A stretch of DNA of 64,000 bases. Source: Nitrospirota bacterium. GTDB taxonomy: Bacteria > Nitrospirota > Nitrospiria > Nitrospirales > Nitrospiraceae. Positions 49,777 to 55,345 of the stretch are shown here, piece by piece. Where the stretch lies: positions 1 through 64,000 of the forward strand of contig JAUXVD010000009.1 of the NCBI GenBank assembly GCA_030684575.1. Reading direction: 5' to 3'. Made by a program: the position numbers and the translations under genes. Numbering within the stretch: position 1 is the first letter of the stretch; every line of letters begins with the position of its first letter. Under the pieces are notes generated by a model that had not been told where the DNA came from, searched no databases, and saw nothing but the letters and a program-made list of their open reading frames with translations.

Positions 49777-50892
49777 ATGCCGATAACCAAGCCCAAAGCC
49801 AAGACTCCCAAACGACCACGCAAGGCACATGCGCCAACTGGCACGCATGTCGCGATCATCGGCGCAGGTCGTGGCGGCACAGCACTGATTGAAATATTTG
49901 CAACAGACCCATTAGTGCAAATCGTCGGCGTGGCTGAAGTCCAGAAAAATGCACCGGGTATCGCACTGGCGAAACGGCTCGGTATCCCTGTGACTCGCGA
50001 TTACCGGAAGCTTCTGGATCTTGAACGGGTGGATCTCATCATTGACGTATCGGGCAATGCCAAAGTCTGGCAGTTACTCCAAGACTTTCACCGCATGGGC
50101 GTGACGATCATCGGCGGGGCGAGCGCGAAATTCATGTGGGAACTGATCGAGGCGCGCATCCGCGCCACGGCAGAAATCGAGAAGACCTTAAATAAATACC
50201 AATCGCTCTATCGGCTCTACGTCAAGGAAACGGGAGTTGCGGTGACGGAGGAACGTACGCGCATTGCCTGTGAAATGCACGACGGTCTTGTGCAGAGCTT
50301 AGCCGGGGTGAACTTCAAGCTGGATCTGAGCCAACAACTGATTCGAAAAGACCCGAAAGCCAGTCTAGCTACTTTGCGCGAAAGCAAAGCCCAGTTGAAA
50401 CTGGCCATCCAGGAGGCGCGGCAAGTCATTTTTAATCTTCGGCCGCTCCACTACGATAAGATGGAGCTGCTACCCGCCCTGACCAACTACCTCACCTCGT
50501 ACGAAATCCAGTATCACATCAAGACGCAGTTCCGCGTATCCGGCGATGAACAAATCTTGTTTCCTCGTACAAAGATCTTTCTCTTTCGTATTGTGCAAGA
50601 AGCCCTCAGCAACGTGGAGAGACATGCAAAAGCGACTCGAGTCACCGTGGAACTAGACATCGACCCCGAACGGCTCCGTATCACGATCGGGGACAACGGC
50701 GTGGGATTCGACATGGACACGGTGCTACGTGATCCCGATAAATGGGATCACTTCGGGATTCGAGGCATTCTGGAACGGGCTCGCCTGGTAGGAGGCGAGG
50801 GCAAGATTGATTCAAAGAAAGGGCGGGGAACGACAATAGTCGTCGACGTCCCGTTGATGAAAAAGGAGACGAGAGCCGATGGAGAAGATTAA
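49777..50892 (+). CDS. Histidine kinase with N-terminal nucleotide-binding (Rossmann) domain
   Basis: 371 aa. The N-terminal domain (about 22-130) has a dinucleotide-fold loop VAIIGAGRGG (25-34) and a dehydrogenase-like continuation (LVQIVGVAEV, VDLIIDVSG). After a helical linker, a HisKA_3-type phosphoacceptor has His168 (CEMHDGLVQSLAGV) and the ATPase domain shows N-box EALSNVERHA and GDNGVGFD (305-312), then HFGIRGILERA. There is no membrane segment, so it is a soluble sensor that may read NAD(P)(H) or a related metabolite. It overlaps its regulator by 14 bases. Confidence 0.85.
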   Translation: MPITKPKAKTPKRPRKAHAPTGTHVAIIGAGRGGTALIEIFATDPLVQIVGVAEVQKNAPGIALAKRLGIPVTRDYRKLLDLERVDLIIDVSGNAKVWQLLQDFHRMGVTIIGGASAKFMWELIEARIRATAEIEKTLNKYQSLYRLYVKETGVAVTEERTRIACEMHDGLVQSLAGVNFKLDLSQQLIRKDPKASLATLRESKAQLKLAIQEARQVIFNLRPLHYDKMELLPALTNYLTSYEIQYHIKTQFRVSGDEQILFPRTKIFLFRIVQEALSNVERHAKATRVTVELDIDPERLRITIGDNGVGFDMDTVLRDPDKWDHFGIRGILERARLVGGEGKIDSKKGRGTTIVVDVPLMKKETRADGED

Positions 50893-51550
50893 GGTATTGA
50901 TCGCGGACGATCATCGGGTCGTGCGTGAAGGACTGGCCGCGATTCTCAAGACGAAAGACGACATTCTGATCGTGGGGGAAGCCCAGGATGGCATGGAAGC
51001 CGTCGAAAAGGTGAAAACGTTGGTACCTGACGTGGTACTCATGGACGTAAGCATGCCCAGAATGGGCGGGGTCGAAGCGACCAGACAGATTAAGCGTGAA
51101 TTCCCTCACATCGGCATCGTGGCCCTCACCATGTATGACGAGCAACAATACATCTTTGATTTAGTACGTGCCGGCGCCACCGGATATCTCTTGAAAGATT
51201 CTGAGTCCTCTCAGATCGTCGCCGCGATACGCGCAATCTACAAAGGTGAATCCCTCATCCATCCCTCAGTCGCAAGCAAGATTTTAGCGGAGTTCTCGTT
51301 GATGTCCCAGAAAAAGGGCAAGAAGCCAGGGTGGGTCGAGCACGATCTGACAGAGCGAGAGATCACCGTCCTACGGTTGGTTGCTGACGGCAAGACCAAC
51401 AAAGAAATTGCCAACAATTTGGATCTGAGCGAAAAAACCGTCAAGAACCATGTCCGGAATATTTTTCACAAGCTCCAAGTCTACGATCGGACACAGGCCG
51501 CCATCCTAGCCATTCGGAAAGGCCTCATCGAATTGGACCCTCGACCCTAG
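50879..51550 (+). CDS. NarL/FixJ-type response regulator
   Basis: 223 aa. The receiver domain has phospho-Asp56 (DVVLMDVSMPRMGG), acidic LIADDHR near residue 8 and Lys in YLLKDSE. A LuxR-type HTH (LTEREITVLRLVADGKTNKEIA, NLDLSEKTVKNHVRNI) lies at about 155-210. It is the cognate partner of the Rossmann kinase, by overlap. It may control the small-ORF chain downstream, but no binding site is proven. Confidence 0.93.
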   Translation: MEKIKVLIADDHRVVREGLAAILKTKDDILIVGEAQDGMEAVEKVKTLVPDVVLMDVSMPRMGGVEATRQIKREFPHIGIVALTMYDEQQYIFDLVRAGATGYLLKDSESSQIVAAIRAIYKGESLIHPSVASKILAEFSLMSQKKGKKPGWVEHDLTEREITVLRLVADGKTNKEIANNLDLSEKTVKNHVRNIFHKLQVYDRTQAAILAIRKGLIELDPRP

Positions 51551-51923
51551 CAGCTTGGTTCATGACAATATTTAAGGACACTTCTAAAAACTAGGGAAGC
51601 TTTCCCAAAATAAGAAAACAGTTCTGCGTCTCGCGTTCAAGCCTGGCTAGTTTCCTCTGTCAATCATTCCTATAAAAGAAAAACTTCCAAGCTCTAGCGG
51701 ATAGCTTTGTCGTACGACCTCACCGGCCTACCTCAGTCTAATCTAAAGAGGCGTTACCATCGATCAGAGTGCGGCTCTCTACACCTGGCGCTGACAATGC
51801 CGCCAACTGAGCAGCGAGCCCGCATGCGCAGCTTGCGCGGGATCGTGTAGGCGTGTAGGTTTGTGTTACATCAGAGATGATAAGACTGAAGAGGATGTAT
51901 TTGGGCTGGCCGAAGGACTCGCC
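51551..51923. other. Intergenic region before the small-ORF chain
   Basis: About 370 bases, AT-richer in the first part. A TATAAA at about 51671 could be a -10 element, but there is no convincing -35. GGGAA/TTCCC flank a short loop near 51594-51606. An open plus-strand frame extends into this region (from about 51795), but the best start for the next ORF is at 51924. No recognised gene. Confidence 0.4.
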
Positions 51924-52091
51924 ATGGGGGTACGCGTGGTGAGGAACGCCGAATCGTGGGCACTGTTCTATCTCAAGCACCAAAGGGAGGTTGAGGAAGT
52001 CCTGCAGTTCCTGGTCGATCGGGTCGATCGGACGCCGGAAACTGACTTCCAGGAACGGACAGGTGTAACGGGCAACGAGGTACAGACATGA
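51924..52091 (+). CDS. Small ORF 1 of the three-gene chain, 55 aa, unknown
   Basis: ATG 51924 is preceded by GAAGGACTCGCC, a good ribosome-binding site; an upstream TTG at 51861 would extend it to 76 aa. The peptide (MGVRVVRNAESWALFYLKHQ...) is helical and charged, with no signal, membrane helix or known domain. Its TGA overlaps the ATG of the next ORF (ATGA), a sign of coupled translation. Confidence 0.5.
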   Translation: MGVRVVRNAESWALFYLKHQREVEEVLQFLVDRVDRTPETDFQERTGVTGNEVQT

Positions 52092-52213
52092 GCGTCGAAG
52101 AGAATCGGAGAAAACCCAAGCCGGTGCTGATGGATACCTATTGTCCAGGTTATGATCTGCCTTATGATCAGTCGATGCGATATGGAAGATCGCAAGGAGT
52201 CTATGTGCCCTAA
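52088..52213 (+). CDS. Small ORF 2 of the chain, 41 aa, unknown
   Basis: It starts MSVEENRRKPKPVLMD and is rich in Tyr and Gly in its second half (TYCPGYDLPYDQSMRYG). The start is coupled to ORF 1 and GAGG lies 7 bases upstream. Its last codons contain the ribosome-binding site and ATG of ORF 3. It could itself be a modified-peptide substrate or a small partner; no family is recognised. Confidence 0.4.
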   Translation: MSVEENRRKPKPVLMDTYCPGYDLPYDQSMRYGRSQGVYVP

Positions 52214-52451
52214 AGAGAAAGATGACCAGCTAGAATGGAGTGGCCCTCGATCTGAGACCGGGAAGAAGCCCTACACACCGCCGCAACTTTTTCGAGTGGA
52301 GATCACCCCGGAACAAGCTATTCTGACGGCCTGCAGCCTGACGACAACCAGCGCGTTCAACGGGGGAAACCGGAGTTGCCGAGGTGCCGGTGGCGGACAA
52401 TGTAAGAACCGGTCAGGCAACAACGGCGACAGCGGCCCGCGCCAATCCTAA
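52203..52451 (+). CDS. RiPP-precursor-like peptide, 82 aa
   Basis: The ATG at 52203 follows AAGGAG by 3 bases and lies inside the end of ORF 2. Residues 21-45 (KKPYTPPQLFRVEIT followed by PEQAILTACS) match a leader-like pattern, K-P-Y-x-P-x-L-x-x-V-x-L-x-P-E-Q-A-x-L-x-x-C. I recall this pattern in small peptides near radical-SAM or PqqD-type genes. The tail (53-82) is rich in Gly, Asn, Ser and Arg, with Cys59 and Cys67, and looks like a core peptide. No modifying enzyme or transporter is in the window, so the RiPP assignment is inference. Confidence 0.55.
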   Translation: MCPKEKDDQLEWSGPRSETGKKPYTPPQLFRVEITPEQAILTACSLTTTSAFNGGNRSCRGAGGGQCKNRSGNNGDSGPRQS

Positions 52452-52762
52452 GTCACCCAATGGTGTCTCGGAATGGCAATCGAGTGGCGCGAGAGATCAT
52501 CCGAAAGAATGGCCGCCTCGTACGCACTCCTGATTTGCGGGGCGTTGCCCCTGGCGCTCCAAGGATATGACGCACAGAATTTCGGGAGAAAATAAACAGG
52601 GCATGATTGGAGAGAAACAGGCCTGTCCGTCCCAATATTCTGTCGGTATGGAGGGTACGAGTTGACGCGGGCGGAGGATCGAGGTGGTTGTGATCGACAA
52701 GAGATTCTGATGAATATTGTTACGTGGCCTCGTTGGTCTGGAGCTCGGACAGGAGAAACAAA
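52452..52762. other. Intergenic region before the antiporter gene
   Basis: About 310 bases. A hairpin GGGGC (52539-52543) / GCCCC (52547-52551) lies downstream of the RiPP-like gene, without a U-run. A 36-codon plus-strand ORF (52460-52570, MVSRNGNRVAREII...) lacks a ribosome-binding site and is not called. Nothing else was recognised. Confidence 0.4.
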
Positions 52763-54001
52763 TTGCCGCTAATCCATACGCTGACAATTCTGATCTGTCT
52801 GGCGGCACTGTTCAGCTATGTGAATCATCGTCTCTTGAAGCTGCCGATCACGATCGGGCTCATGGCAGTGGCGCTCGTCTTCTCTCTGGTGTTACTGGCA
52901 TTGGGTAAGCTGGGATTTGGGATTGAAGCAGAAGCGCAACGATTCATTGGCGCCATCGATTTCAACGAGGCGCTCATACACGGCATGTTGGGGTTTCTCC
53001 TCTTTGCCGGCGCCCTGCACGTCAAGCTGGATGAGCTGCTGGATCTCAAGTGGGTGATCGGCACGCTGGCCGTCGTGGGCACGATTTTATCGTGCCTGAT
53101 CATTGGCGGTCTGGGATACTTTTTGTTCGATCTCGTTGGTCTCCCTCTCCCCTTTCTCTATTGCCTATTATTCGGAGCATTGATTTCGCCGACCGATCCC
53201 ATCGCCGTGATGAGCATTCTCCGGCAGGCCCGCCTCCCGAAGGCACTCGAAATGAAAATCGTCGGAGAGTCGCTATTCAACGACGGCGTCGGCGTGGTGA
53301 TTTTTCTCGTCGTCTTGAATCTGTTGCCCAAGGCGTCGATCAGTGTGGGCGACGTCCTGCTGCTGTTTGCGGAAGAGGTGATCGGTGGCGTGGTCTTGGG
53401 TCTGACCCTTGGCTATGCCGCCTATCGTATGCTTCGGTCTGTCGATAACTATCAGGTCGAAATCTTGCTCACACTGGCCTTGGTGATGGGCAGCTTTGGC
53501 CTCGCGGACATCCTCCATACGTCCGGACCGATCGCCGTCGTGGTCGCGGGCCTATTGATCGGGAATCACGGCCGGCAATGGGCCATGTCCGACACGACGA
53601 GAGAGCATCTCGATAATTTCTGGGAATTGCTCGATGAGTTGCTGAATGCCGTGCTGTTCGTGCTCATCGGATTGGAAGTGCTGGTGCTGAACTTTCAGCA
53701 GTCGTATCTATTGGCTGGCCTGGTCGCCATTCCACTGGTGCTCGTAGCGCGCTGGATGAGCGTCTTCGTACAAGTGAAAGCCTTCAGCTTCGCCCGGGAA
53801 TTTAGCGAACGGACCATTACGATTCTGACATGGGGCGGGCTGCGCGGCGGAATTTCCGTGGCGTTAGCCTTGTCACTGCCGGTTGGACCGGAACGCGGCG
53901 CGTTGATCACGATTACCTATGCGGTGGTAGTCTTCTCGATTCTGGTACAGGGGCTCACGATCAATCGAGTACTAGGAGATCACGCCATGGGGGTAGAATA
54001 G
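52763..54001 (+). CDS. Na+/H+ antiporter, CPA1 (NhaP) family
   Basis: 412 aa from TTG 52763, chosen because AGGAGA lies 6 bases upstream; a longer frame starts at 52724. About twelve membrane helices are visible, with the CPA1 hallmarks [17 protein letters not shown] and [18 protein letters not shown] (the DG pair expected in the transport site), and [18 protein letters not shown]. It exchanges Na+ or K+ for H+ across the inner membrane. The SOD pair follows, after 82 bases. Confidence 0.92.
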
Positions 54002-54083: not shown

Positions 54084-54716
54084 ATGACCTATCGAGTGAA
54101 GCGTTTCGACCATCTAAAGGGCCTGCGGGATTTCAGCGATCAGTTAATGGCCAACCACCTTACGCTCTACCAGGGGTACGTGAAAAATACGAACCAGTTG
54201 GCAGCGCTTCTCTTGAACATGGTGAAGCTCGGAAAGGCCAATACGATGGAATATGCCGAGCTAAAGCGGCGGTTCGGCTGGGAGTTCAACGGCATGAGGC
54301 TCCATGAGCTGTATTTCGAAAATCTTTCCAAGCGGCCGGTTCCTATTCGGAAGACATCCCCGCTATACGAAAAGCTTTGGCAGGACTTTAATCAGTTCAG
54401 CAGCTGGGAACGAGGGTTCATGGGGGTCGGCGGTATGCGGGGTATCGGATGGGCGGTGCTCACCCGTGATCCAGCGACTGGCCACCTGTTCAATGTCTGG
54501 ATGGACGAACACGACGCAGGATTTTTGGTGGGGTCAACGCCATTGCTCGTCATGGACGTGTTCGAACATGCCTACCTGCAAGAGTTCGGCATGAATCGGA
54601 CTGCGTATGTGCAGGCCTTTATGAAGGCGATCGATTGGTCGGTGGTGGAACGGCGGTTCGAGGGGGCTGCATTGCCCCCACTCCAACCGGTCTCGGTCAG
54701 AAAAAAGGCATCATGA
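54084..54716 (+). CDS. Fe/Mn superoxide dismutase family protein (copy 1)
   Basis: 210 aa. Candidate metal ligands are His25 (NHLTLYQGYVKNTN), His74 (MRLHELYFENL), Asp158 and His162 (MDVFEHAY), and the C-terminus has the family's AFMKAIDW. The classical HHxxHHxxYV is replaced by NHLTLYQGYV, a divergent branch, so activity is not certain. No signal peptide, so cytosolic. The stop overlaps copy 2 as ATGA. Same length as copy 2. Confidence 0.75.
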   Translation: MTYRVKRFDHLKGLRDFSDQLMANHLTLYQGYVKNTNQLAALLLNMVKLGKANTMEYAELKRRFGWEFNGMRLHELYFENLSKRPVPIRKTSPLYEKLWQDFNQFSSWERGFMGVGGMRGIGWAVLTRDPATGHLFNVWMDEHDAGFLVGSTPLLVMDVFEHAYLQEFGMNRTAYVQAFMKAIDWSVVERRFEGAALPPLQPVSVRKKAS

Positions 54717-55345
54717 ATGATTACAGCGCGAAAGCTTTCGACCATCTCTTTACGTTGCCCGGGTTCAGCGAACAGTCCGTGCGTACACACCTGACGCTCT
54801 ATCAGGGCTACGTGAACAATACCAACTTGCTTGCCGAAATGATGCGTGAGTGGCTGACAGTCGGGAAAAGCGGCACGATCGAATGGGCGGAGGTGAAGCG
54901 GCGGTTCGCCTGGGAGTTCAACGGCATGCGGCTCCATGAATTGTATTTTGAGAACCTCACGGCGACGGCGATGGCCTTGGATCACCAGTCAACACTCTAT
55001 CAAAAAATCGAAGCCGACTTCGGCCCCTATGAGCTGTGGGAGCGAGGGTTCAAAGGAACAGGTGGGATGCGCGGTGTCGGATGGGTCATTCTGGCATTCG
55101 AGCCATACACCGGCCGATTGTTTAATGTATGGATGGACGAGCACGATACCGGTCTGTTGCTGGGAACACAACCGCTCCTCGTCATGGATATGTTCGAGCA
55201 CGCGTATCTCCCGGATTACGGGTTGAAGCGTAACGACTATATTGAGTCATTTTTCAACGTGATCAATTGGGCTGAAGTTGAGAAACGGCTGGCGGTTTGT
55301 CTGAAGGACCAGCCCGCCGTTAAGGGCAGCTCCACTCCGGGCTAG
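54713..55345 (+). CDS. Fe/Mn superoxide dismutase family protein (copy 2)
   Basis: 210 aa from ATG 54713, overlapping the copy 1 stop; an earlier in-frame start at 54635 lies inside copy 1 and is rejected. Candidate ligands are His26 (THLTLYQGYVNNTN), His75 (MRLHELYFENL), Asp159 and His163 (MDMFEHAY). IESFFNVINWAEVEKRL matches the family C-terminus. Strong local identity to copy 1 indicates a tandem duplication; the two products may form a heterodimer or differ in metal use. Confidence 0.78.
   Translation: MNDYSAKAFDHLFTLPGFSEQSVRTHLTLYQGYVNNTNLLAEMMREWLTVGKSGTIEWAEVKRRFAWEFNGMRLHELYFENLTATAMALDHQSTLYQKIEADFGPYELWERGFKGTGGMRGVGWVILAFEPYTGRLFNVWMDEHDTGLLLGTQPLLVMDMFEHAYLPDYGLKRNDYIESFFNVINWAEVEKRLAVCLKDQPAVKGSSTPG

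Follow-up and report, generated by a model that had tools for sequence, protein, structure and literature searches.

Phosphorylation of peptides by HprK-like kinases is known from the lasso peptides paeninodin and pseudomycoidin, in which the kinase (PadeK/PsmK) phosphorylates the C-terminal serine and PsmN adds a hexose (PMC9266682). A related set of enzymes has been described for the linear polyphosphorylated peptides (LPP) of the lpp cluster of Paenibacillus alginolyticus, whose precursor bears a YxxP leader and is processed by an RRE, a kinase, an NTP transferase and a SipW-like peptidase; the class was described as restricted to Bacillota (PMC13381572). HprK-related, PqqD-related and radical SAM/SPASM proteins also come together in the SynChlorMet cassette of NCBIfam (TIGR04248-04251, ScmC-ScmF). 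Within the openly accessible literature searched, we found no paper on ‘SynChlorMet’ and none joining radical SAM enzymes, an HPr kinase (HprK) and an RRE or PqqD protein. The genus Nitrospira includes major nitrite oxidisers and comammox bacteria. Its peptide natural products are on record as generic RiPP clusters only (PMC9765116).

The 64,000-nucleotide stretch of Nitrospirota DNA analysed here (the window) carries, on the forward strand, three consecutive short reading frames: ORF1 (51924-52091, 55 aa, in a frame open from 51795), ORF2 (52088-52213, 41 aa) and ORF3 (52203-52451, 82 aa, with an inferred start at 52203 and further possible starts at 52152 and 52182). An earlier note had described ORF3 as resembling a RiPP precursor, with a leader-like motif and a Gly/Asn-rich tail bearing two cysteines, and this description holds: C59 and C67 lie in the tail, a further cysteine, C44, ends the leader motif, and across homologues a constant leader is followed by a variable core. 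ORF3 matches the family profile with an E-value of 2e-26, and by profile and protein searches 46 of 175 Nitrospiraceae genomes carry family members, in 10 genera. Homologues also stand at 19 named loci, among them loci of named Nitrospira MAGs and one of a Rokubacteria MAG, and weaker relatives occur in three other Nitrospirota families. In an alignment of 19 copies, the leader-type region KKPYTPPQLFRVEITPEQAILTACSL (52263..52340, + strand), which contains a YxxPxL motif, is invariant at K22, Y24, P27, L29, V32, E37-L41 and A43-L46, giving the pattern K, Y, P, L, V, EQAIL, ACSL. The variable core and tail (52341..52448, + strand) keep C59-R60, C67-K68 and D76-S77-G78 in all copies, and every complete row ends in serine, Ser82 in ORF3; copies from the more distant families likewise end in serine or, in G381, in threonine. 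ORF3 retains all 21 family-invariant residues and the C-terminal serine. It is thus a real and intact RiPP precursor of a Nitrospiraceae family, displaced from its usual setting and, as the earlier note had suggested, an orphan at its own locus: modification genes are encoded beside its homologues and none near ORF3.

What surrounds the homologues? Nearly always, and in many genera, they sit in a fixed cluster between rSAM_B and an HprK-like kinase. Read from the loci long enough to show the whole set, contig C23 of the source genome included, the order is GT, MT (methyltransferase), PqqD/RRE, rSAM_A, rSAM_B, one to three precursors in tandem, HprK-like kinase, rSAM_C, NTP_transf_5 and a SipW-like (S24/S26-type) peptidase. 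An ECF sigma-like gene and an anti-sigma-like gene often come next, and the MT or the peptidase is undetectable at a few loci. The PqqD protein matches PF05402 above the cut-off (E 9.5e-16), its best NCBIfam match is the lasso PqqD, and its AlphaFold model (best-model pLDDT 83) is most similar to leader-bound lasso B1 proteins (TbiB1, E 6e-5), so that its predicted fold is RRE-like. Among the radical SAM proteins, rSAM_B and rSAM_C exceed the PF04055 cut-off (E 2.5e-21 and 2.3e-27) and rSAM_A is matched by NCBIfam rSAM models; CxxxCxxC is conserved in all three beside homologous precursors, and they are candidate enzymes for modifying the precursor peptide. The kinase is matched by HprK_rel_B (E 1e-9) and Hpr_kinase_C, both below cut-off, with a conserved SGxGKST and an AlphaFold model of HprK/PEPCK-type fold at modest TM-scores. 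The NTP_transf_5 protein lies above the cut-off of PF14907 (E 2e-30) and conserves SDVD, and the peptidase conserves its S/H/D residues and scores 44 bits against a TIGR02228 cut-off of 51.85 (E 2e-11). Homologous loci combine a constant leader, a variable core, adjoining modification enzymes and a PqqD-type RRE, as expected for RiPP precursors with an RRE-dependent leader.

Loci outside the Nitrospiraceae resemble this cluster. At L144, L145 and L146, from other Nitrospirota families, precursors of the type KKPYKKPEIxxVxLKPEEAVLxACK have a short core and lie beside PqqD, rSAM and HprK genes, two of the three loci also having the SipW-like peptidase gene; these are possibly a simpler relative of the cluster. 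The Rokubacteria MAG contig (L080, QHSR01000126.1) has PqqD, rSAM_A, rSAM_B, precursor, HprK and rSAM_C arranged as in Nitrospira, which may stem from a transfer or from a binning error.

The cluster shares features with LPP. Both have a discrete RRE, an HprK-like kinase, an uncharacterised NTP transferase and a SipW/archaeal-type signal peptidase, here the presumed leader peptidase, and both have a YxxP leader and no macrolactam cyclase; the joint presence of SpI-like peptidase, discrete RRE, HprK kinase and NTP transferase that marks LPP is found in the Nitrospiraceae cluster as well. However, the LPP leader YxxPxVLxHQxIxFETxxS is not matched beyond YxxP, the remainder of the Nitrospiraceae leader reading LFRVELNQEQAILSAC and ending in VxLxxEQAILxAC. 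The LPP kinase targets a serine at core position 3, whereas the Nitrospiraceae precursors have a cysteine-bearing core and a conserved C-terminal serine. Unlike LPP, the Nitrospiraceae cluster has three radical SAM enzymes and GT and MT genes. An MsbA-like transporter as in LPP was not seen among the conserved neighbours listed for the precursor. With the paeninodin- and pseudomycoidin-type lasso peptides (PadeK/ThcoK/PsmK, PsmN) the cluster shares an HprK-like kinase together with a nucleotidyltransferase, the conserved C-terminal serine and a PqqD-type B1 RRE, but family scans of the cluster proteins detect neither the lasso macrolactam synthetase (C) nor the B2 protease, and radical SAM enzymes are found instead. 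The likeness to the SynChlorMet cassette lies in the joint occurrence of its three protein types and in weak model matches, all well below cut-off (ScmD 28 versus 100 bits, ScmC 22 versus 125 bits); compared with that cassette, the Nitrospiraceae cluster has three radical SAM proteins plus the nucleotidyltransferase and the peptidase.

By analogy with paeninodin/pseudomycoidin and LPP, we infer that the cluster makes a radical-SAM-modified, C-terminally phosphorylated peptide. In such a pathway, the discrete PqqD-type RRE would bind the YxxPxL leader, and at least one of the three radical SAM proteins would modify the cysteine-containing core. The HprK-like kinase would then phosphorylate the conserved C-terminal serine as in paeninodin-type peptides, possibly followed by addition of a sugar to the phosphate by the NTP_transf_5 protein, and the SipW/archaeal-type signal peptidase homologue would remove the leader. 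How does an orphan fit into this scheme? The earlier note had looked to radical SAM or PqqD genes elsewhere with the same leader motif as possible support, and the source genome does contain them: the C23 cluster (locus L049) is intact and encodes a precursor of a longer type that shares the leader motif of ORF3. This makes the suggested processing in trans plausible, and we consider it probable that ORF3 is, or recently was, matured by the C23 cluster. The broader proposal is more tentative, perhaps a little short of an even call: that these loci define a class of RiPPs, widespread in Nitrospiraceae and extending to Rokubacteria, with a cysteine-bearing core modified by three radical SAM enzymes, a lasso/LPP-type module (RRE, HprK kinase, nucleotidyltransferase, SipW-like peptidase) serving phosphorylation and perhaps glycosylation of the C-terminal serine as well as leader removal, and maturation in trans of one intact orphan or more. 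If true, the ten-gene cluster would carry the lasso/LPP phosphorylation module beyond Bacillota and join it to radical SAM chemistry, and the intact orphan would let both leader specificity and maturation in trans be examined in a naturally occurring case.

The orphan lies in the scar of a deleted trehalose operon. The segment 51758..51857 (+ strand) has 80-83% DNA identity to the sequence directly upstream of otsB in four relatives (L054, L052, L051, L058; 83% in L054) and reads as a relic of the otsA (trehalose-6-phosphate synthase) 3' end, lying in a frame different from that of ORF1; its frame-2 peptide LHLALTMPPTEQRARMRSLRGIV presumably corresponds to the OtsA C-terminus. It adjoins the 3' end of otsB (trehalose-phosphatase; 51858..52043, + strand), which is overlapped by ORF1 and has 69% DNA identity to the otsB 3' end of L052 and L059. 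In a search of 32 genomes of the genus, ORF1 matched some dozen relatives, in each at the C-terminal region of an open frame of 270-400 aa, with 52-59% protein identity to the C-termini of 298-398-aa frames; its relative in L055 scores as Trehalose_PPase (PF02358, 2e-24), and ORF1 has no other match within the source genome. About 700 bp between the otsA and otsB ends (positions ~734 to ~1435 in L054/L052) are absent from the window. Because the two matches adjoin with this segment missing, and because otsB in the relative G016 is directly followed by the same antiporter gene as the scar, we read ORF1 as a deletion scar: by homology it is what a deletion has left of otsA and otsB, their 3' ends fused, a gene relic rather than the conserved small gene it might have been. 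The right boundary is a gene at 52764..54001 (+ strand; 52724-54001 in the comparison with G016) that we take, from the appearance of its sequence, to encode a Na+/H+ antiporter and that has 80% DNA identity to L055 1876-3088, placing ORF3 inside the scar, between the otsB stump and this gene. Further downstream, at 54084-55345, are two adjacent similar ORFs of 210 and 236 aa, whose C-termini we assume to resemble Fe/Mn superoxide dismutase.

Could the orphan itself be a very recent pseudogene, a copy thrown from the cluster into the otsAB scar, unexpressed and not yet decayed? Its surroundings are relics, it sits on a long branch (0.43) of a mostly unresolved precursor tree, where its closest neighbours along the branches are G028 copy 1, G016 copy 2 and G019 copy 1, and both remaining orphans of the family (G005, G037) are degenerate. 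The expression signals point the same way. Cluster copies start right at the leader (MTEKKPY), while the orphan has no leader-proximal start codon and its nearest usable ATG is displaced upstream by 18 codons relative to where copies usually start, behind an RBS at poor spacing; translation may therefore be weak or absent. A promoter and terminator scan of the locus gave a single promoter-like site, no more than expected by chance, and no Rfam match to a known RNA was found there. The region upstream of the leader (52045-52256), considered as a tandem-precursor remnant, aligned locally no better than shuffled sequence (best fraction 0.08) and was rejected as such. Against decay, however, the ORF3 frame is intact with all conserved residues kept. 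Compared with cluster copies, pN is 0.23-0.40 and pS 0.53-0.90, and dN/dS is 0.17-0.31 where dS is not saturated. In neutral-decay simulations starting from a cluster copy, none of the 20,000 runs made at the observed divergence, and none of the 20,000 at half of it, kept all 22 conserved residues. ORF3 has been under past selection, in a test that spans the whole time since the last ancestor shared with the cluster copies and that a very recent loss would escape. We therefore regard a recent pseudogene as unlikely, though a rival to be taken seriously, and favour an intact precursor that is, or recently was, probably matured in trans.

The earlier note had gone further and suggested that all three ORFs, each with its own RBS, belong to one system, possibly controlled by the two-component system next to them. 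The 4-base overlap of ORF1 and ORF2 (ATGA) and the 11-base overlap of ORF2 and ORF3 are as claimed, and RBS-like sequences are present, but the AAGGAG of ORF3 stands merely 3 bases before the ATG at 52203. Nor is the architecture improbable by chance, as had been supposed: counting ORFs of at least 40 aa with overlaps of 1-20 bases, the 64-kb window contains 36 comparable three-ORF chains and each of five base shuffles of it 9-20. ORF1 is an otsA-otsB relic, and ORF2 is without a close homologue, with no match at E<=0.1 in the 31 other genomes of the genus. Its weak matches in the wider family (best E 0.0018) include the tails of small CxxC...CPxC proteins, and when the window is scanned with an HMM of these, the ORF2 frame comes out on top (E 0.0023 over 22 aa); one of the two CPxC cysteines is lost. 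ORF2, too, is probably debris, and with modest confidence it may be a relic of the C-terminus of such a protein. The CxxC...CPxC proteins form a large family with many paralogues across Nitrospiraceae genomes (L162, L163, L171-L200). The two-component system consists of a histidine kinase (49777-50892) next to a response regulator (50879-51550). The regulator is conserved in relatives, but there the system lies on other contigs than the precursor (for example C69 versus C68 in G027, C3 versus C13 in G028, C21 versus C2 in G007), and its proposed control of the precursor family finds no support. The three-ORF chain is not a unit, and a single system of three co-translated genes is highly improbable. 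The histidine kinase has an unusual input domain: besides HisKA_3 and HATPase_c, it carries an N-terminal NAD-binding Rossmann-like domain with DapB_N and GFO_IDH_MocA matches.

That ORF3 encodes an unmodified secreted or structural small protein resembling a precursor by accident would accord with no product having been detected, but we give it hardly any credence given homologues that in many genera are nearly always flanked by rSAM_B and the HprK kinase, have a PqqD/RRE gene close by, and combine a YxxPxL leader with a variable core. Of the other two orphan precursors, one (L041, G005:C206, 4145-4330) has an in-frame TGA in the core, and the other (L152, G037:C1, around 9960) is reduced to a 31-aa frame.
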